64,000 nt of DNA from NCBI GenBank assembly GCA_018398815.1, contig CM031622.1, positions 24,654,633 to 24,718,632 of the forward strand. The letters are read 5' to 3'. Below the pieces are notes generated by a model. That model saw only the letters and a program-made list of their open reading frames with translations. It ran no database searches and had not been told where the DNA came from. The position numbers were made by a program, and so were the translations under genes. The DNA is from Conus ventricosus. Lineage: Eukaryota > Mollusca > Gastropoda > Neogastropoda > Conidae. Below are positions 39 to 42,986 of the stretch, one piece after another. The first letter of the stretch is position 1. Each line of letters opens with the position of its first letter.

Positions 39-149
39 TTTCACGCGTGTGGCGCTGTGCATGCTTGTGCTGCATTACATGGTAGAGCTGGTGTTCCACA
101 CGGCCAGACTCATCTACTTTTCTGACAAACCTGACTTGGCAGCTAATGT
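39..149 (+). CDS. TRAM1: TRAM1-like exon A (TLC-domain segment), partial gene
   Basis: Internal coding exon of a translocating chain-associated membrane protein, an ER multispanning protein that sits beside the Sec61 channel and helps nascent chains insert. The acceptor is a pyrimidine-rich tract ending in CAG at 36-38 and the donor is GTAAGT at 150. The exon is 111 bp, with 1 base, 36 codons, then 2 bases. It encodes a hydrophobic helix and the family-typical stretch ELVFHTARLIYFSD, matching the TLC domain of TRAM1/TRAM2 proteins. The end phase matches the exon at 6965. The N-terminal half of the gene lies left of the window. Seen: splice sites, phase and motif. Inferred: orthology to TRAM1 rather than TRAM2. 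Confidence 0.93.
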
Positions 150-1560
150 GTAAGTCATACGTTACCAAGAACATGGAATTGGGGAACCTGTGCGCTTGAG
201 CATCTTCTGGATGGTTGTATGTCATGATATTCTGTGTGTTCATTGAAAAAAAGTGGAAGCCTGAAGTCTGCTGCAAAGAAACCATAATTACGATGGTGAT
301 AAATAGGTAAATACTCCCTTTTTTTCCCCTTGAGAGGGAGGGAATGTGGGTGATGAGATGGGAGGAGAAATCATTCTATGTTACTTAACTAAGTGTTATT
401 TAGGAAATTTTCACATCCAGTTTTGTCTTGCTGACCATAAAGTCATCATGACAAATGAAAAAGAAGATTCCTGTAGTCTTCACCAGCCATTGTATGCATT
501 CTCTTATATATATATTTGTTGTGTTTAAACAAGTCGGAAACAACATGATATTCGGATGGAGTTTCATGCTTAAGACATCATTCTGCATCTTTTTCTGTTT
601 TCTGTCATGTTGTTTCAGCGGCATAGCTGGTTGATATGGGCACAGAATGGTTTGAGAGATGTGACTATACCACTTCTATTTTCGATTCTTGACTGTTGTC
701 AGCAGGCCTCGATTCTTTAGTGCATAAGTCTTCTTCATTGGTGATAAGGTCTTTATAGGTGTGTGTAGGATTTGTGGTAGCACCTCATTTCAGATTCCTG
801 GATTCTTTCTGTGATCTGCTGTCAGGTCCACGTTTCACAAGCGAAAAGATATCCCAGTATGCGCATCATCCTCATTTTGGATTTGAATGAGACGTTGTTC
901 CAGATGGTCTGGAGCTGGGAAAGCGCTGTTGAGGTAAGGGCCATTTTAGCCAGGGCTTCTGGTTTTGGGCCCCTTTACATGTCACAACTACTCCCAGATA
1001 GTTTATTAAAGCTGTGTAGTCTAACTTTGTATCCTGCATGCCCGTGGGTGTTCTTTGTCAACAGTAGAGTCTTTTCGCACTGTAGCCTTTGCCATATGCT
1101 GTGGTGTGTTGTTTTAAAGGGAGATTTTACCAGTGGGGCAAGTTCTTTTTCCTGTTCAGCATAACTAACGATGTCATCATCAAACAATGGGTTGGCTATG
1201 GCCCTGCCCCTTGTGGTCACTGTTCCAAAATGGTTTTCTAGCACATCAGTCATCAGTCTTTCCCCGAAATATGTTGAAGAGGATGGGGAAGAGGAAACAG
1301 CCCTGTCTGATTTCCCAAAACTTGGCAGAACCATTTGCTGGCTGCTGTCATTGAGAACTGTGCTGGTAGCTTCTTTATAAAGTTGCTATGTTCTGATAAT
1401 TTTTCTTTCCCAAGTTGTAGTTCCCTTAAATTGCTCACAAAGCAGCTTTATAGAGCCTGTCAAAGGGATTTTAAAGTCGATGAAAACATAATGTAGATCT
1501 TGCTGGTGTTCAAGGTGTTTCTCACAAAGGAGTCGATGTTGAAAAGTTGTTTGGTTGGGG
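150..1560 (+). other. TRAM1 intron, unique left part
   Basis: First part of the 6.8-kb intron between the exons at 39-149 and 6965-7036. AT-rich single-copy sequence; short open frames on both strands lack splice context or family resemblance. No gene, RNA or mobile element is recognised here. Confidence 0.7.
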
Positions 1561-1564
1561 CCCG

Positions 1565-2135
1565 GTGGTGTCACTAGAATTTGTGAAGTGATCACAACAT
1601 ACCGTCCTCTGAGATTGTTGGTGTCAGTAGGATTTGTGAAGTGATCACAACTACTATTCACTGAAATGTAAGTGTTGTCAGTAGGGTTTGTGAAGTGATC
1701 ACAATATACTACTCATTGAAGTGTTTGTGTTGTCAGTAGGATTTGTCAAGTGATCATAAATACTATTCAATGAAGTGTTTGTGTTGTCAGCAGGATTTGT
1801 GAAGTGATCACAATATACTATTCATTGAAGTTTTTGTGTTGTAAGTAGGATTTGTGAAGTGATCATAATATACTATTCAATGAAGTGTTTGTGTTGTCAG
1901 TAGGATTTGTGAAGTGATCACAATATACCGTCTACAGAGACTGTTGGTGTCAGTAGAATTTGTGAAGTGATCACAGCATACTATTCATTGAAGTGTTTGT
2001 GTTGTCAGTAGGATTTGTGAAGTGATCACAACTACTGTCCATGAGAGTGTTACTGTTGTCAGTAGAACGCGTGGGGTGATCACAATATACCATCCTCTGA
2101 AAGTGATTGTGTTGTCATTAGGATTTGAACTGTGG
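1565..2135. repeat. ~55-bp minisatellite with TGATCA core
   Basis: About ten imperfect tandem copies of a ~55-bp unit, each containing TTGTCAGTAGGATTTGTGAA followed by the palindrome TGATCA and a variable AT-rich part (for example around 1680-1735 and 1850-1960). It lies inside the TRAM1 intron. The block passes directly into a 29-bp minisatellite that shares its TTGTCAGTAGG and TTTGTGAAG segments, so the two appear to be one family at two stages. Confidence 0.85.
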
Positions 2136-2159
2136 TTGCAGTATATCATCCATCTCTGT

Positions 2160-2690
2160 GAAATGATTAGATTGTCAGTTGGATTTGTGAAATAGTGACT
2201 TTTCAGCGGGAATTATGAAGTAATTACATTGTCAGTAGGCTTCGTGAAGTAGTTGCATTGTCAGTAGGCTTTGTGAAGTAGTTGCATTGTCAGTAGGCTT
2301 TGTGAATGAGTGACACTGTCAATAGTATTTGGGAAGCAATGACTGTCAGTAGGCTCTGTGAAGCAGTGACATTGTCAGTAGGCTTTGTGAAACAGTGACA
2401 TTGTCAGTAGGCTTTGTGAAGGAATGACTGTCAGTAGGCTTTGTGAAGCAGTGACATTGTCAGTAGGCTTTGTGAAGCAGTGACATTGTCAGTAGGCTTT
2501 GTGAAGGAATGACTGTCAGTAGGCTTTGTGAAGCAGTGACATTGTCAGTAGGCTTTGTGAAACAGTGACATTGTCAGTAGGCTTTGTGAAGCAGTGACAT
2601 TGTCAGTAGGCTTTGTGAAGCAGTGACATTGTCAGTAGGCTTTGTGAAGCAGTGACATTGTCAGTAGGCTTTGTGAAGCAGTGACAGTGC
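2160..2690. repeat. 29-bp minisatellite
   Basis: About seventeen copies of a 29-bp unit containing TTGTCAGTAGGCTTTGTGAA plus GCAGTGACA, with some shorter copies lacking part of the unit (for example near 2335 and 2425). Copies are most uniform toward the right end (2525-2690). Related to the 55-bp array immediately upstream. It abuts the exon-derived array that begins at about 2705. Confidence 0.9.
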
Positions 2691-2704
2691 AGCCCCTGTG
2701 TGCC

Positions 2705-3274
2705 GGTGCAGGTTCATGACCTTCAATGTGCTGTTTGTGCTGGTGCAGGTTCATGACCTTCAATGTGCTGTTTGTGCTGGTGCAGGTTCATGACCTTCAA
2801 TGTGCTGTTTGTGCCGGTGCAGGTTCATGACCTTCAATGTGCTGTTTGTGCTGGTACAGGTTCATGACCTTCAATGTGCTGTTTGTGCTGGTGCAGGTTC
2901 ATGACCTTCAATGTGCTGTTTGTGCTGGTGCAGGTTCATGACCTTCAATGTGCTGTTTGTGCCGGTGCAGGTTCATGACCTTCAATGTGCTGTTTGTGCT
3001 GGTGCAGGTTCATGACTTTCAATGTGCTGTTTGTGCTGGTACAGGTTATGACCTTCAGTGTGCTGTTTGTGCTGGTACAGGTTATGACCTTCAATGTGCT
3101 GTTTGTACCGGTGCAGGTTCATGACCTTCAATGTGCTGGTGCAGGTTCATGACCTTCAGTGTGCTGTTTGTGTTGGTGCAGGTTCATGACCTTCAGTGTG
3201 CTGGTACAGGTTATGACCTTCAGTGTGCTGGTACAGGTTATGACCTTCAATGTGCTGGTACAGGTTATGACCTT
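2705..3274 (+). repeat. Exon-edge minisatellite, left block (37-bp unit)
   Basis: About 17 copies of a 37-bp unit (type copy 2712-2748) with 28-bp and 27-bp deletion variants. Each unit reads, in order, the first ~30 bases of the TRAM1 exon at 6965 and then GGTGCAG, so each carries an AG splice acceptor followed by a copy of the exon start. The left border GCCGGTGCAG at 2702-2711 may be the original intron end. The block is cut at 3274 by a hAT element and resumes at 5127. Confidence 0.95.
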
Positions 3275-5126
3275 CAGTGATGATTCTAGAGCGCGTTTTC
3301 GCGGGATAACCGCTGATTTTTTCGTTTGGCCACATAAAATCGCGAGCGATGCGTCTCGAGAGCCGCTAAAAATTGAAAACGGCCACCTCTTTCGTCAGCG
3401 TGTGCGGCATCACTGTCGATCGTCTGGTTGTCGTTGACATAGCAACATCAGAAAGGGCGATAATTCTGGCAAAGTTGCAAAGCCTAGCCATAAAACTGCC
3501 GACGATTCTCATTGGTTGACAAGTTTTTTAGTTCCGAGCTCAACCAATCAGAAAAATTGTATTAGTATGACAGTTTTTGAAGCGCCATTGTTCTCCCACA
3601 TGCTTCGAAGCCTGCATGCCGTCGTGACCTCGTTTCAAAGGAGACAATATCTTTCACCATGAAGCGTTCAAGCACCCTGTTTTCCTTCGCTTTCACAAAA
3701 GCAAAAAAGAGTTGCTCAGGTACCAGCAGTACTTCGGACAATACTGATAATGAACGGATTTCCACCGTGAATGAGTTAGGTGATGAAGAAGGGGCTGGTG
3801 TTGAAATATGTGAGGCAGTCAATTCAAATTCGATTTCGAGTGAAGAACCATCGACTTCGATGGAAGAACCCGGAGAACTTGAAGAAGAAGAACCGAAAAC
3901 TAGTGAGCAGAAGGAGAAAATGCAGCTGTTCAAAACTTTTCAAGTATCTTGGATGAAAGAATGGCCCTGGCTAGCCAAGGACGATGACGGCAACATGCTG
4001 TGCACTGTGTGTTCGAAGCATGGAAAGAAAAACGCCATGACGAAACCTGGGTGCAAAAATTACCGACTGAACTGCTAGACAAATTAGAAAAAAAGAAAAA
4101 CACTGAGGGGGAGACAGTGGAAATTGCCTACAAGAGGAAGAAACTGACTTTTGACAGCAGTGTTAGAGCAGTCACAAAAGAGGTAGAAGAGGTGCGCAAT
4201 TCATTTTGTGACAATCTTATCTCTAACATTGACCACAGGTTTCCAGCTGACACAAAGGATGTTGCTTCTGCCTTCAGCATCCTGTCCATGAGGCCACTGA
4301 CCTTCCTATCTCAAGACAAGCGGGAAGAGTTTGGACACAAAGAAGTAGGCATCCTGGCTGATTTTTATGGTGGGGAGAGGAAGAGGGGAGAGAAAGTGAG
4401 CAAGCCTTTGATCACGAAGGATGTCTTGATGGAAGAATGGTCTGTGGCCAAGGAAACAGTCCTCCACAATATGTATCCACGGATGTAACAAAAACTTTGT
4501 TCAAATTGCTGTTTGACTACCACAAGGATAGTTTTCCAAATCTCCTTGTACTTGCTAAGTTAGCGCTCATCATGCCATATCACACTGCTGACTGTGAACG
4601 GGGATTCAGTTCCCAAAATGCCATCAAGACTGCACGCAGAAACAGAATGAAGGAAGACAGCCTGAATGTTTTGATGACAATCAAATGTGAAGGCCCTGCA
4701 GTAGAAGACCATGACTTTACAACAGCAGCAGCTGTTTGGAAAGAGAAAAAGGACAGAAGGATATACAAAAAGTAGCACTTCTTCTGGGTTTTTTTTCATT
4801 TTTTTTTAAGATTTTGTGACTCATACACACTGTTTGGTGCTGGTGCTGCAGAAATCAAGAACTTGGTGAGTTTTACAAGTGTATGACATGTTCTGTACCT
4901 TTTTTTTCCTTTCTATTTTTTTTTCAGGCTGTACTGTGTGTTCTCAGTCACTTCAATTCATTGTTGTATTACTACATTTACTTTAGCCAAGTAATGTTGC
5001 TGGCTTTGATGAATAGTCGCAAATATTTGGAGCCTCCCTTTCTTTGCCCAAGAGACCCCTGGGGCTCCCTTTTTGCTTCTGAGGGAGGCATTGGCTCCCT
5101 TTTTTGAAATCCTAGAATCAACACTG
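3275..5126 (+). mobile_element. hAT-superfamily DNA transposon, internally deleted
   Basis: 1852-bp element with terminal inverted repeats: left CAGTGATGATTCTAG (3275-3289) and right CTAGAATCAACACTG (5112-5126), 14 of 15 complementary. It is flanked by a direct repeat GACCTT (3269-3274 and 5127-5132), a candidate target-site duplication. The target is the TRAM1 minisatellite, whose units continue on both sides, so insertion came after array expansion. It contains hAT transposase fragments in three frames. The 6-bp flank is shorter than the usual 8 bp of hAT elements and sits in repetitive DNA, so its length is uncertain. Confidence 0.85.
3659..4775 (+). pseudogene. hAT transposase remnant (BED/TTF-like zinc finger + C-terminal dimerisation region)
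   Basis: Three overlapping frames. 3659-4078 encodes an acidic N-terminus and then a BED/TTF-type zinc-finger start with WMKEWPWLAKDDDGN and CTVCSKHGKKNA (CX2C). 4000-4488 continues in another frame with no clear catalytic motifs. 4437-4775 encodes the family-typical C-terminal region with YHTADCERGFS and IKTARRNRM. The total is far below a full hAT transposase (commonly 600-900 residues), and most of the central RNase H-like catalytic part is missing. It should be inactive unless trans-mobilised. Confidence 0.8.
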
Positions 5127-6964
5127 GACCTTCAATGTGCTGGTGCTGGTTCATGACCTTCAATGTGCTGGTGCAGGTTTATGACCTTCAATGTGCTGTT
5201 TGTGCTGGTACAAGTTATGACCTTCAATGTGCTGTTTGTGCTGGTACAGGTTCATGACCTTCAGTGTGCTGGTGCAGGTTCATGACCTTCAGTGTGCTGG
5301 TGCAGGTTCATGACCTTCAATGTGCTGTTTGTGCTGGTACAAGTTATGACCTTCAATGTGCTGTTTGTGCTGGTGTAGGTTATGACCTTCAATGTGCTGC
5401 TTGTGCTGGTACAGGTTATGACCAATGTGCTGTTTGTGCTGGTGCAGGTTCGTGACCTTCAGTGTGCTGGTGCAGGTTCATGACCTTCAATGTGCTGTTT
5501 GTGCTGGTGCACATTCATGACCTTCAATGTGCTGTTTGTACCGGTGCAGGTTCATGACCTTCAATGTGCTGTTTGTGCTGGTGCAGGTTCATGACCTTCA
5601 ATGTGCTGTTTGTGCTGGTGCAGGTTCATGACCTTCAGTGTGCTCTTTGTGCTGGTGCAGGTTCATGACCTTCAATGTGCTGTTTGTGCTGGTGCAGGTT
5701 CATGACCTTCAGTGTGCTGTTTGTGCTGGTGCAGGTTCATGACCTTCAGTGTGCTGGTGCAGGTTCATGACCTTCAATGTGCTGTTTGTGCTGGTGCAGG
5801 TTCATGACCTTCAATGTGCTGTTTGTGCTGGTGCAGGTTATGACCTTCAGTGTGCTGGTGCAGGTTATGACCTTCAGTGTGCTGTTTGTGCTGGTACAGG
5901 TTCATGACCTTCAATGTGCTGGTACAGGTTATGACCTTCAGTGTGCAGTTTGTGCTGGTACAGGTTATGACCTTCAATGTGCTGTGCAGATTATGACCGT
6001 CAGTAGGCTGTTTGTGCTGGTACAGGTTCATGACCTTCAATGTGCTGTTTGTGCTGGTACAGGTTATGACCTTCAATGTGCTGGTACATGTTATGACCTT
6101 CAATGTGCTGGTACAGGTTCATGACCTTCAATGTGCTGTTTGTGCTGGTACAGGTTATGACCTTCAATGTGCTGGTACAGGTTATGACCTTCAATGTGCT
6201 GGTACAGGTTATGACCTTCAGTGTGCTGTTTGTGCTGGTGCAGGTTCATGACTTTCAGTGTGCTGGTGCAGGTTCATGACCTTCAATGTGCTGGTGCAGG
6301 TTCATGACCTTCAATGTGCTGGTACAGGTTATGACCTTCACTGTGCTGGTGCAGGTTCATGACCTTCAATGTGCTGGTGCAGGTTCATGACCTTCAATGT
6401 GCTGTTTGTGCTGGTGCAGGTTCATGACCTTCAATGTGCTGTTTTGCTGGTGCAGGTTCATAAGCTTCAATGTGCTGTTTGTGCTGGTGCAGGTTCATGA
6501 CCTTCAATGTGCTGTTTGTTCTGGTGCAGGTTCATGACCTTCAGTGTGCTGTTTGTGCTGGTGCAGGTTCATGACCTTCAATGTGCTGTTTGTGCCTGTG
6601 CAGGTTCATAACCTTCAATGTGCTGTTTGTGCCGGTGCAGGTTCATGACCTTCAATGTGCTGTTTGTGCTGGTGCAGGTTCATGACCTTCAGTGTGCTGG
6701 TGCAGGTTCATGACCTTCAATGTGCTGTTTGTGCTGGTGCAGGTTCATGACCTTCAATGTGCTGTTTGTGCCGGTGCAGGTTCATGACCTTCAATGTGCT
6801 GTTTGTACTGGTGCAGGTTCATGACCTTCAATGTGCTGTTTGTGCTGGTGCAGGTTCATGACCTTCAATGTGCTGTTTGTGCTGGTGCAGGTTCATGACC
6901 TTCAGTGTGCTGTTTGTGCCGGTGCAGGTTCATGACCTTCAATGTGCTGTTTGTGCTGGTGCAG
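5127..6964 (+). repeat. Exon-edge minisatellite, right block
   Basis: About 54 further copies of the 37/28/27-bp unit family, running without a gap into the real TRAM1 exon at 6965. Variants differ in GTTCATGACC versus GTTATGACC, in GGTGCAG versus GGTACAG, and by loss of a 9-bp internal piece. Most units keep the CAG acceptor. Two of three frames are open through a 37-bp unit and the third meets TGA in TTCATGACC. Together with 2705-3274 there are about 70 copies by eye. Confidence 0.95.
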
Positions 6965-7036
6965 GTTCATGATCTTCAATGTGCTGTTTGTGCTGGTGCG
7001 GCTGGGGACCATTACTTTGGCTGTGCTCACATTCTG
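6965..7036 (+). CDS. TRAM1: TRAM1-like exon B (transmembrane helix)
   Basis: 72-bp coding exon (1 base, 23 codons, 2 bases) following GGTGCAG at 6958-6964 and ending before GTTAGT at 7037. It encodes LFVLVRLGTITLAVLTF, a membrane helix matching the TRAM/TLC motif after the ARLIYFSD segment. Phases match exons A and C exactly. Its 5' half is the parent sequence of the upstream minisatellite: this copy has ATGATC where most repeat units have ATGACC. Its acceptor is therefore the last of about 70 near-identical acceptors. The donor GTTAGT is weaker than consensus. Confidence 0.93.
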
Positions 7037-7090
7037 GTTAGTCAGTCATTCAGCCAGCATAGGCTGACATGTTTCTGCTGCGTATGTCTG

Positions 7091-7130
<40 letters not shown>

Positions 7131-8033
7131 AGCATGTGTGTGTGTGCCTCTGTGTGTGTGAGTGTGTATGTTCTTGTGCTTACATAGTGCAGATTTCACT
7201 TAATTCGTGTTCAAAGTAGACCCAGAAAATTTGCTTATTGGCTGAATTCATTTATGTTCGATGAGGTCCTTTGTGAAGTCCATGATTGGGTTAGATATGG
7301 TGATGGTTCCTTGGGAAGAGGGTATTAGGATGGTAAGACAATGGACAGTTCATTTGGGGATGGGTTTTAGAGGAGGACCATGAAGCCTTCACTTGCACTA
7401 AAGAAAACATCTACATCAGGCAAGAATTGAACAAACCTTTCTTTTCAACTTGTATGTTATACTGAGTTAATGTACTGTCAGATATTCCAGAGGTGGTTAA
7501 AAACCCAAAAGTGTAGATGCTTTGTTTGGACGTTTTTTGGGTTGTTTGTGTTTTCTCTGAGGTCTGTGGGTGTGTTAGTCATGAAGGTGTGGGAAACTGG
7601 ATGTGAAGGGAGTTGGGTTGACAGATGGAGTGTGGCCCCTGAATGAGGTCATTCAGTTTGCCTGTGGATCAGTCAGAGAGATCCAGATCCCAGGGCTCGT
7701 GCAGGATCCTCTGGACTGTGGCAGAGGTCATGTTTTTTTTATTTTTAATTTTTTTAAACTTTTACAAGACCTCAGCAAAAGTTCCAGATCATTTCTTCTT
7801 GTTTTGAATACAATAAAAAGAAGTTGGTGGAGAGACGTCGTCATTTGTGGTGATGTCATACAGTTCTTTTGGCTGCTGTCATGTCGACTGCTATCTGTGT
7901 AGGGTTGAATACACACAAGCAATTTTTTTTTCTTAAAATGTGAAAAATGATACCTGATTTTCTCTCTTGTCTTTGACTGTTGAAGTCAATCATTTGTTTG
8001 GTACATCATCAATAGCACATGTTGTAATGACAG
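7037..8033 (+). other. TRAM1 intron B-C
   Basis: Intron between exon B and exon C. It contains a GT microsatellite at about 7098-7165 just past the donor. Otherwise unique, T-rich sequence, with no gene or mobile element recognised. Confidence 0.75.
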
Positions 8034-8105
8034 GTATGGACTTGAGCAGACAAGTCAGCCCAGTATCAACCCAGCCACCGGAAACTACAATACACAAGTT
8101 GTCAG
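8034..8105 (+). CDS. TRAM1: TRAM1-like exon C (lumenal/loop segment)
   Basis: 72-bp exon (1 base, 23 codons, 2 bases), acceptor TGACAG at 8028-8033, donor GTAACA at 8106. It encodes YGLEQTSQPSINPATGNYNT, matching the conserved YGL...N...G.FN loop that separates two membrane helices in TRAM proteins. Phase joins exon B (shared Trp codon) and exon D (shared Arg codon). Too short for a simple ORF scan; found by phase and family pattern. Confidence 0.9.
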
Positions 8106-10212
8106 GTAACACTGTCTTCTCCTTGGTAACAATAGTAAGAAGATAGCATTTATAAAGTGCTTTGCCAAGGGTTCTGAGCACTGACAATCCACACTCTTGT
8201 GTACACAATGGGCTCCCTACGTGGTAGTGTCGACTGAAGAGCTGCCTGCCAGTGTTTCATTCAGTTGTTTCCCGTGTCATGCAGTCAATATCTTTCATTC
8301 ATTCACTCAGTTTTCATACTTCTTCATTCTTTTCATTTCTCCCGCAGGGTGCATGCTATGTGTAATATGTCATCCATACCAACAGCCAAACTGGCCTTCT
8401 CTTCGAAAAGTTGATGTGAATATGTGCATGCAAGATGTTATGCATGCGTTCACACATGGAACCTTGGGTTTATGGTCTCATTCGATGGACTATTTGGGAA
8501 ATAGAGTCAGAACCAATGTTAACTCCAAGGTATAGTACCCTGTACCGAAACAGCCTAGCAGAGATTCGAACCCGCTACCCCAGGATTACCAAGATTGCAA
8601 GTACGGCGCTCTGCCAGCTGAGCTATTCTGGCCCCTTTGTCTTTGAACAGTCAATAATTTTGAGTAAAACGTTCCCTAGACTTCCAGATTAACTTACATG
8701 AGACTTAGACAAACTGAGGTGCTGTCATTGAAAAGAAGAAAAAAAAAAACTACCTTCATTGAAAATGATAATGGTACCAATTTTTTATCTTCTAGAATAT
8801 GAGTGTGATGGGTTAGAAAAACATGTTGACTTCAGCAAATAAAATGACACATGTAAAAGTCTACTTGGGTCATGTGCAGTGCAGCACTTGAGCGTTCCAC
8901 TGCAACAACTTCACTTGCACTGGTACACAATGAGGATGACAGACTGAGAGAGACACATCAGTGAGATCAGTTGGGATGTGTGATTTATTTTTTTTATGGT
9001 CTCAGCATGGTTTACCTTACTGTCTGAGAGGAGATTATTTTATTCAGTATCAATGTCAGTGCATGTGTCATTGCATGTTAACTAGGGTTAAGAACTGTTG
9101 TTTGAATGTTTTCTGGGTTTTTTTTTAAAGATAAAAGTTTATGTAGCTACACACCAACAAGAATGCCTTTAAAACGATATCTCAATAAAGGAGTCAGACT
9201 CACGAAACGACAGTGGTTTCAGAACTGTCTTGTTTCATTGTAATGTACAGGATTATAGTCATGGTCTTGGGGCCCACGTCCGTTTCAGGATTGGGGATTC
9301 TTTCCCCACTTGTATTCCCGTTGTTCACTCAGTCTGTCCACCCATTACACTGATGGGTGGTTTGGTTAGCAGTGTTGTGAATGTGATGACTAAATGAATG
9401 GTCAGGTGGTGACTTGTGTCAGCAAGCAGCCCCTGTGTGTGTGTGTGTTGTGTGTGTGTGTGTGTGGTGTGTAGTCTTCAATGTCTATTCACATTGTTTT
9501 CTTTGACAAATAAAGAACAATTTACGAAAAAAGAAAAAAAAATGCAGCAGGAATGAGAAATAACCAGAAGTAACATCAAATACAAGTATACAACATCTGC
9601 ATTCATTACAGGTAGGTAAAGATCGGACTTTCACTTAATGCTAATCCAGTGTCACATGTTAGTGAGGAATTATGTAAAATTTCATCCAGGGAAGATTCGG
9701 ATAAAGCAGGCAAAAATTTTTCAACTGTTTGCATATTAGAAGTATATGTATATTTGATATTTTTCACACAAATGCATTTTTGTCATCAGTAAATTTGTTT
9801 TAAAAGCATTAAGTTTAAGTCTGAGTTCATTGACCTACATGACATAAGCCATTTCAAGTTCTTAAGATAGTATCATACCGTGGTGGCTGATTTTTTGGTT
9901 GGACAAAAAGTACTTAGAATACTTTAGCTTCTTTCTAAAGTGTTTCCAACATGCTTTCTGTAATAACCTATATCCCTCTAGAGGCGACAGGAATATTTAA
10001 ACTATGTGCATTGTCAGCACATTTTGTTCCACTTTTTGCCAGTCTATCAACTCTTTAACTACAATGGATTCCACGATGTGATGGAATCCAGCAGAATGTA
10101 ACACTACTACCTTTCAAAAATAGATGTATTAACTGTGGAGTTTGATTTGCTTTGTGTGTGTGGCGTGTGTGTGTGTGTGAATCTGATATATGTCTGTCTG
10201 TCTGTGTTTCAG
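8106..10212 (+). other. TRAM1 intron C-D
   Basis: 2.1-kb intron holding a minus-strand tRNA-derived SINE at about 8345-8640 and GT-rich simple sequence at 9435-9470 and 10157-10180. AATAAA occurs near 9509, inside the intron. No other gene or element recognised. Confidence 0.7.
8345..8640 (-). mobile_element. tRNA-derived SINE (mollusc-type)
   Basis: On the minus strand a tRNA-like head shows a pol III A box (complement of 8607-8625, TAGCTCAGCTGGCAGAGCG) and B box (complement of 8562-8572, GGTTCGAATCT). It is followed by a tail whose + strand reads CTTGGGTTTATGGTCTCATT (8462-8481). I recognise that tail type from common molluscan SINEs, where it reads as a 'gagac.ataaac..aggt' core. The stretch between the boxes is longer than in a real tRNA, so this is a retroposon and not a tRNA gene. 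Ends are approximate; no target duplication confirmed. Confidence 0.7.
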
Positions 10213-10352
10213 GATCAACTGCCTGGCAGCCATCTGCCTGATGCAGGCCTGGCTGATGTGGAACTTCATCAACTTTCACCTGCGGAAACTGCGTGAGCGA
10301 AACATGGCCAGCCGCAAGTTGCGCTCCCCCAGCAAGAAAAGGCTGGCAAAAG
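10213..10352 (+). CDS. TRAM1: TRAM1-like exon D (last helix and basic cytosolic tail)
   Basis: 140-bp exon (1 base, 46 codons, 1 base) after GTGTTTCAG and before GTGACT. It encodes INCLAAICLMQAWLMW and then NFINFHLRKLRERN, matching the final membrane helix and basic tail of TRAM1 (the family pattern is QAxMMWxFINFQLRRWRE). The tail continues with a basic stretch rich in Lys, Arg and Ser. Phase 1 end joins the terminal exon at 16169. Confidence 0.95.
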
Positions 10353-40668: not shown

Positions 40669-42986
40669 GGAATACTCTGAATCTGGTTACTCTGTGAAGT
40701 ATCAACTGGATAAAGGAGATTACGAAGGCATGAGGAAACATGTAGGAGAGATAAATTGGAACGACCTTGTGACCAATGAAGCACCAGTGGATGAAATTTG
40801 GGGGATTATTCATAATGTACTTATTAAGTCAATGGACAAATTTATTCCTAAAAAGTCTTTTAAACAAGGACCAACCAACAAACCAAGACGAGACCCCTTT
40901 CCCCAATCTCTCTTAGATAAAATTCACCTTAAGCGCAGAGCCTTCAAAAGGTACAAGAAATACCCCACAAATGAAAACTACAAACTGTATGCATTGCAAG
41001 AGCTAGAAACCAAGTAACATGGGGACAAGGAAAAATGTAAAAGCAAAGGAGGCTAAACTGGCTAAAGAATCTAAGCAAAACCCAAAAGGATTTTTCCGTT
41101 ATGTTACGAGTAAAACCATACCAAAAGAATCGATAGCTAATTTACTAAAGGAAGATGGTACCTTAACACAAAATGATTCTGAAAAAGCAAGTGTACTAAA
41201 CAGCTTCTTTGCCAGTGTTTTTACTGAGGAAAGTAACATAAACGTTCCAAAGTTTTCATGTAAAAAAGAGGTTACAGAATTAACAAAAGTGGAGATCACA
41301 ACCGACCAGATGGAAAAAACATTAAAGAACTTAAACCCATCGAAGTCCCCAGGACCTGACGAGATTCACCCAAGAGTACTGAAGGAGCTGGCTAACGTCA
41401 TCGCTTACCCATTGAAGACATTATTCGATAGAACACAAGAAAAGGGTGTAATAACGAAAGATTGGAAAGAAGCAGAAGTACGTCCTATTTTTAAGAAAGG
41501 AAACAAGAACTCAGCAGGAAACTACCGTCCAGTCAGCCTAACATGTGTTGTCTGTAAAGTTTTCGAGGGTTTTATTCGAGACGCTCTTTGCCAGCACTTA
41601 ACCAAACATGACCTGTTATCTAGAGAACAATTTGGATTTACCACAGGGCGTTCATGTGTTACACAATACTTGTTACTTTACAAGATGGTTAGTTACATTG
41701 GATGAGAAAATACCAGTTGACGCAGTCTACCTAGACTTGAGGAAAGCATTTGATACAGTTCCACACCAAAGACTGATAAATAAACTGGAGGCTACGGTAT
41801 AAACGGCAAGCTACTATCGTGGATCAGAGATTTCTTAAAAGGAAGATCACAGTTTGTAAGTGTAAACAGTAGTAAATCATCGAAGGTCAACGTGACTAGT
41901 GGAGTACCACAAGTAGTGTTCTCGGACCGACCTTGTTCATATACTTTATAAATGATATGCCTGAGGAGGTAGATTGTAAAGTAAAAATCTTTGCAGACGA
42001 CACCAAGGCTTACTCTGCCATCCAAAATATAGAAGACAGAGATCATTTACAATTGTGTATACACAATCTAGTGAAATGGACAAATACTTGGCTATTGCAG
42101 TTTAATATCGAGAAATGCAAAGTTCTGCACCTTGGAAAGAATAATCCACACTATCAGTACACAATACTGGAAAATGGGGTTAATAGAACACTGGAAAGTA
42201 CTATTGCTGAGAGGATTTAGGTGTCACCATGGACCCAGATTTGAACTTTGAGACTCATATAAAACAACATTGTGAAAAAAAGGTAATCAAATGGCTGGTC
42301 TTCTTGTGAGGATTATTACAAATAAATCTCCTGAAATCATGATTCCATTGTTCAAAGCTCTAGTTAGACCAATTATTGAATATGGAAACTCAGTATGGTG
42401 CCCCTATCTTAAAAAACATATAAATATGATTGAAGGTGTTCAACGAAGATTTACAAGTGTGTAACTAGAACGAGTACTCGTGATCTTAGTTAGAGAGCGC
42501 CTAACTCTGTTTAGGTTGCCTAGCCTAGAATTCAGAAGACTAAGAGGTGATCTCATTGAAGTATACAAATTATGCACAATATTAAAATTTATGATCCTTG
42601 CACCACCTCTTCCTTGTTCACTATGGCTAACTATGAAAAGACTCGAGGACATAACTTCAAAATAACCAAAACAAATTTTGCAACTAACCAGTTACGCAAT
42701 TTTTTTACTAACCGTATCATTAATCTGTGGAATAACCTTTCCGATGACACTATCAACGCGCCATCAGTAAACGCATTTAAAAATCAAATTGACAAAAAGT
42801 TTAAAGACCAGGTATTTTCCACTGAGTTGGATCTTTATTAAGATGATGATAAATGTAGTATACACTATGCCTGACTTAAGCCATTAGGACTTTCACGAGA
42901 AAGTGATCCAAAAGCACATAAACGGATACTGATTATGAGGGCAAAAGGCTATTAGCCTATAGCCATACATTTCTGTGATTCTGTGA
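40669..42986 (+). mobile_element. CR1-like LINE, 3' part (reverse transcriptase and 3' end)
   Basis: Continues the LINE interrupted at 35614; the frame resumes after one GGAA copy. It contains the reverse transcriptase and ends with TTCTGTGATTCTGTGA (42971-42986), resembling the short ATTCTGTG-type 3' repeat of CR1 elements. The RT is broken by at least two frameshifts. Confidence 0.85.
40676..42841 (+). pseudogene. CR1-like reverse transcriptase, frameshifted
   Basis: Copies LINE RNA into DNA at the nicked target. Pieces: linker 40676-41017; 41019-41705 with LNPSKSPGPDEIHPRVLKEL, WKEAEVRPIFKKG and NYRPVSLTCVVCKVFE, the standard LINE RT blocks; 41700-41802 in another frame with VYLDLRKAFDTVPHQRL; 41933-42220 with the catalytic FADD at 41990-42001; 42572-42841 the C-terminal region with FFTNRIINLWNNL. 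A single-base event near 41700 separates blocks 3 and 4, and stops occur near 41800 and 42220. Jockey or L2 families share these blocks; the 3' tail favours CR1. Confidence 0.88.

Follow-up and report, generated by a model that had tools for sequence, protein, structure and literature searches.

A mirage-like minisatellite derived from an exon's 3' splice site in an intron of a TRAM1-like gene of Conus ventricosus

Previous reports have described minisatellite-like tandem duplications of intron-exon boundaries, known as mirages, in amphioxus, where they affect the globin genes BflGb6 and BflGb9 as well as Adh3, PGBD5 and TnC (PMC3087553, PMC3902484). In BflGb6 the 3' end of an intron and the 5' part of an exon are duplicated, one haplotype having 6 units and another 3; by RT-PCR, mirages seemed to leave regular splicing undisturbed (PMC3087553). 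Intron 7 of human F7 contains 37-bp repeats, each with a splice site, of which normally the exon-adjacent one alone is used (PMC6627357), while the tandem repeats of human UBC carry dual-specific AGGT sites (PMC10809524). In addition, introns have been reported to arise when exon sequence that carries AGGT is duplicated in tandem (PMC4974935), and human repeats have been described at exon-intron boundaries (PMC2812944). Among the papers listed by our literature searches, in which coverage of subscription journals was thin, there was no molluscan mirage, and the parts examined of a paper on cone-snail introns mention microsatellites only (PMC3862624).

The window analyzed here, a stretch of 64,000 nucleotides on contig C28 of the Conus ventricosus assembly, starts within a gene of the TRAM family, as indicated by a TLC domain and by TRAM1-like relatives. 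Four exons were placed on its forward strand by homology to TRAM genes (to TRAM1 for e8) and in-frame joining: e8 (39..149, with the donor GTAAGT at 150), e9 (6965..7036, 72 bp, with the donor GTTAGT at 7037), e10 (8034..8105) and e11 (10213..10352). When joined they contain no stop, and the resulting fragment matches PF03798 (TLC, TRAM_LAG1_CLN8) at 2.9e-11, with 44.1 bits vs a cut-off of 24.6; the closest relatives, searched with the protein of a paralogue on contig C35 as the query, bear TRAM1-like names. Over 129 positions the identity of the window gene to Babylonia P0005 is 88%, to Nucella P0010 82% and to Babylonia P0001 78%, which suggests an old TRAM gene pair. The exon at 6965 is a TRAM exon with the expected intron phase, and its reading is conserved in 10/10 relatives. 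The phase-2 intron that precedes it (150..6964, forward strand) holds three minisatellites in a row: a 55-bp tandem array of 10.3 copies that is not exon-derived (1565..2127), a 29-bp array of 18 copies (2171..2686), which by eye has TTGTCAGTAGG.TTTGTGAAG in common with the former, and finally an array derived from the exon itself. The search of the window against Rfam gave no match, and an open frame at 41007-41705 resembles reverse transcriptases weakly, scoring under the threshold of the family.

The exon-derived array occupies two blocks on the forward strand, 2705..3274 and 5127..6964, with 17 and 55 unit boundaries respectively, and passes into the exon at 6965 without a break, its last boundary being the acceptor of that 72-bp exon. 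The consensus unit, GTTCATGACCTTCAATGTGCTGTTTGTGCTGGTGCAG, agrees with the exon's first 30 bases at 29/30 positions, the sole difference being ACC in the unit and ATC in the exon; the other 7 bases, GGTGCAG, correspond to the intron end and have GGTGCGG as their counterpart within the exon. This form is also the commonest, accounting for 37/172 complete units parsed when this array and a second copy on contig C4, described below, were pooled. These data confirm the proposal, made in a first-pass annotation of the window, of a minisatellite made up of copies of the exon's 3' splice site. The composition given there for the unit, GGTGCAG plus about 30 exon bases, also held, but the units are not all 37 bp long: the 70 spacings within blocks are of 37 bp (37 cases), 28 bp (13), 36 bp (10), 27 bp (8), 33 bp (1) and 26 bp (1). 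The estimate of about 70 acceptors agrees with the 72 boundaries counted between 2705 and 6965, true acceptor included, of which 65 read CAG|GTT, although they do not form one span, being separated by a hAT transposon at 3275-5126. The extended motif CAG|GTTCATGA is found at 46 sites, and the whole span has 66 CAG|GTT, one of them (4239) inside the transposon.

The 37 bases upstream of the working acceptor (6928..6964) are identical to the consensus unit, so that 30/37 are exon-derived. In our reading, each full unit looks like a 3' splice site, with ATGAC as a candidate branch point 29 nt upstream of the AG, a stretch rich in T and G, and CAG|G at the boundary. The original end of the intron seems to lie at 2690-2711 on the forward strand (CAGCCCCTGTGTGCCGGTGCAG), beside the first exon-like unit and more than 4 kb upstream of the working acceptor. 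Selection within the array was also considered, and a value of 0.56 was obtained for nonsynonymous/synonymous changes per site (96 37-bp units from both copies); nothing was concluded from it, since the figure is dominated by a handful of recurrent changes, indels put some of the units out of register (one has 19 mismatches) and units are copied from one another.

By the features tested, units that span the boundary and splice dinucleotides that are partly kept, the array belongs to the mirage class. As in amphioxus, tandem units span an intron-exon boundary and many of them, not all, keep AG/GT (65/72 here). Unit number differs between haplotypes in amphioxus; here, 72 boundaries in the window compare with 104 in the copy on C4, which is likely, but unproven, to be the other haplotype. 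In contrast to BflGb6, with its 6 and 3 units of 150-160 bp, the copies here have 72 and 104 boundaries and a main unit of 37 bp; they further differ from the amphioxus mirages in the mollusc host and in the transposons nested in the array. With F7 the locus shares homologous splice-site repeats and, by coincidence, a 37-bp main unit, but its units contain the acceptor of the exon that comes after them rather than the donor of the one that comes before, and it is not an array of the F7 donor type. The repeat number in intron 7 of human F7 we take to be under ten, fewer than here. AG|GT at tandem-unit boundaries is a feature in common with UBC; there, however, the repeat is coding, lies in one exon and has 228-nt units that keep the frame, while here the array is intronic, its retention leads to stops and the donors are weak. 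As in intron gain by AGGT duplication, duplicated coding sequence lands inside an intron, although no new intron arose in this case, the C35 paralogue having it at the same site and phase. The first-pass annotation had presented the expansion of an exon boundary into an intronic array as something undescribed for this gene, a novelty that was overstated given the mirages of amphioxus (PMC3087553) and the donor-side array of human F7 (PMC6627357). The kind is already known; what is unusual is the scale, the phylum, and the origin of the 37 bases before the working acceptor, which form a unit of the array and in 30 positions come from the exon.

A genome search covering the 3.52-Gb assembly (12,740 contigs) gave a strong array signal at one other place, on C4, the counts in that search being lower bounds; weaker matches on C19, C24 and C17 turned out on inspection to be unrelated repeats. 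The second copy (C4:71147549-71166952) lies directly beside a 100-N gap, aligns with inserts to window positions -526 to 9802, has the same left array flank, and contains 59+45=104 boundaries vs 72 in the window. The two copies also differ in their transposons. The element in the window (3275-5126, forward strand, 1,852 bp), which splits the array in two, contains the hAT dimerisation region PF05699 (2.9e-8, above cut-off) and has matching ends, CAGTG.TGATTCTAG, with GACCTT on both sides. The corresponding array stretch on C4 lacks it and aligns to its joined flanks with a score of 477 of 588; the C4 array is interrupted by a different insert of 4,004 bp, and the flanks of that insert, when joined, align to the window array with 514 of 588. 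Outside the exon-derived array, mismatches amount to 31/1,401 aligned bases in the unique part of the intron, 6/1,055 in the 55- and 29-bp arrays, 17/460 at the start of the next intron, and 169 in 2,245 columns, with 240 gap columns, over 7614-9802. In that next intron C4 also has an insert of about 6 kb, which corresponds to window 7614-7617. Of ten TRAM matches, none falls on C4. The C4 copy is probably a misplaced piece of the other haplotype, though this is not proven. The rise in mismatches towards 9802 speaks against another haplotype, and the copy could instead be a partial duplication of the locus. Whichever holds, the array was assembled twice.

This second copy also bears on the only difference between exon and array. 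On C4 the exon reads ATGACC, as the array does, with ACC as the codon where the window has ATC, and the single difference between array and exon is therefore not fixed. Sequence exchange between the array and the exon at 6965-7036 is possible. At this site ten relatives have V (7/10), A (1), S (1) and I (1), and none has T; by our count, changes in either direction need equal steps.

The paralogue on C35 has an intron at the same position and phase, with the acceptor TTCATTGCAG|GTTCATGG, which is a single ordinary acceptor without exon copies. Since the intron is shared and its acceptor in the paralogue is ordinary, the intron predates the array, and the 3' end that it has in the window gene grew out of coding sequence. 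Over four exons, window gene and paralogue gave a dN of 0.13, a dS of 1.1 and a dN/dS of about 0.12, which points to constraint on the window gene, as does the retention of its relatives in Babylonia and Nucella. Single-base frame breaks were seen in several exons of both TRAM genes (outside the window on C28, and on C35), and they are probably residual assembly indels.

That the upstream copies are decoys, as the first-pass annotation had it, is in agreement with their sequence. Scored with an approximate matrix, the true acceptor reaches 8.21, and among the 66 upstream AG|GTT sites (65 in the array, 1 in the transposon) 29 equal it and 4 exceed it, so that 33/66 score at least as high; of the intron AGs outside the array, 9/336 do so too, the best (15.67) being in the transposon. 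Local acceptor strength thus does not single out the true site, and the matrix decides nothing. The full exon is reached from the last copy only, as had been proposed. The 27-bp variants had been expected to keep the frame, and 18/66 upstream sites are indeed in frame, yet all 66 lead to a premature stop, in 65 cases within the extended exon and in one (6928) in a later exon; units that start with GTTATGA stop at once. Among AG|GTT sites, an open message is obtained from the last one alone. Because every upstream choice gives premature stops, an open gene needs the last AG|GTT acceptor, and we infer that the acceptor in use is 6965. Use of the nearest upstream copies would yield exons of 109, 146 and 183 nt, which are of ordinary size, and exon length alone therefore does not explain the choice of acceptor.

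The reading that we regard as probable is that of a 3'-type mirage minisatellite which is mainly a neutral product of slippage, and whose last acceptor is chosen by exon definition. According to it, the intron of this TRAM1-like gene is old, and in it the segment from the acceptor GGTGCAG to its exonic near-copy GGTGCGG would have been duplicated in tandem; the near-repeat may have seeded the first duplication, although this is a guess. Slippage or unequal exchange would then have made the array grow to 72 boundaries in the window and 104 in the second copy, as a mainly neutral by-product. The acceptor of the last unit would be used as the only one to form a pair, over a short exon, with the donor at 7037, the unique half of the exon acting together with that donor; the contribution of the exon's downstream half or of the donor to acceptor choice that the first-pass annotation put forward is plausible. 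Products from upstream copies would carry stops and would probably be lost to decay. This reading mirrors what is described for F7, where the exon-adjacent repeat alone is used (PMC6627357), and is in line with the undisturbed splicing seen by RT-PCR for published mirages (PMC3087553).

The equal or higher scores of half of the upstream sites with the approximate matrix, the stops in all 66 products and the ordinary length of the nearest extended exons could also reflect a regulatory role, in which a sizeable share of transcripts would use stop-bearing upstream copies and array length would tune TRAM output through decay. We consider this unlikely, since regular splicing is intact in the published mirages (PMC3087553), and a difference as wide as 72 vs 104 boundaries does not suggest a tuned element. 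Another proposal builds on CAG|GTT at 65/72 boundaries: units bounded by GT and AG and retained through an upstream acceptor could later be spliced out without trace, in the manner of UBC, in whose tandem repeats an AGGT site can take either role, donor or acceptor, such sites tending to be weak (PMC10809524). Here, however, the donor scores of the units are 1.5 for CAG|GTTCAT and 3.1 for CAG|GTTATG, vs 4.3-11.1 for 16 TRAM donors of both genes (approximate matrix), and a single 37-bp unit is too short, so at least two would have to leave together, all of which makes the proposal distinctly improbable. We give equally little credit to a combined scheme in which splicing would enter at any AG|GT, retained whole units would later be removed, and array and exon would exchange sequence. 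Were its first part true, a correct message would result whichever acceptor is tried first, and were the exchange true, an intron repeat could rewrite protein sequence.

The array might have been inflated by the assembler from a short true repeat, as the single-base frame breaks in the two TRAM genes and the position of the second copy at a scaffold gap could indicate; but the two copies differ in length, in unit variants and in nested transposons, and we hold this to be very improbable. An assembly artefact had been named from the start among the findings that would overturn the array; the C4 copy counters it, since its array length and its transposon are both different. Decay of the window gene, with splicing no longer of consequence, is hardly credible: frame breaks occur in its e1 and e3, and in e8 of the C4 copy, but similar breaks in exons of the paralogue look like sequence error, the four window exons join without a stop and dN/dS is about 0.12.

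The locus represents a natural competition experiment, with dozens of near-identical acceptors before one exon, two array lengths and a paralogue with one acceptor, and owing to these features standard RNA data could reveal the rule of acceptor choice. The locus further suggests that the entire region ahead of a working acceptor can come from duplicated coding sequence, that an intron can gain kilobases out of a neighboring exon, and that mirages occur outside lancelets as well.

As to how common such arrays are, a scan of 31 TRAM boundaries for boundary copies found one with a multi-copy array and one other, the C35 e10 donor, with a second copy. Arrays within 60 bp were present at 5/15 mapped TRAM acceptors (C35 4/9, P 0.00028; C28 1/6, P 0.26) and at 1/16 donors, that of the exon at 6965, which counts because the array runs into that short exon; on the intron side the figure was 0/16. 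The idea that minisatellites gather at acceptors was not upheld in 52 CCT and myosin exons (31/59 CCT and 21/70 myosin places, with domain-hit edges standing in for mapped splice sites and with flanks of 500 bp), where arrays lay within 60 bp upstream in 4/52 and downstream in 5/52, and within 300 bp in 14 and 15, respectively. In this set, copies of the exon start upstream at z>5 were found in 0/52 exons and copies of the exon end downstream in 1/52, with 29/40 bases; judging from this limited sample, mirages are uncommon in the Conus ventricosus genome. The exon concerned, a CCT exon at C28:60471383, has this imperfect copy of its last 40 bases about 100 bp into the downstream intron. At the C35 e11 acceptor there is a degenerate upstream copy of the boundary (49/60 columns match) that reaches 15 bases into the exon, 13/15 of them identical, although a shuffle test of the exonic portion by itself gave no significance (z 1.9); a second, perhaps older, boundary duplication or mirage is only suggested by it. 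Unrelated minisatellites with units of 44, 33, 12 and 31 bp end 0 to 13 bases before the C35 TRAM acceptors e7, e9, e10 and e11, and the 44-bp and 12-bp units carry CAG|GT.
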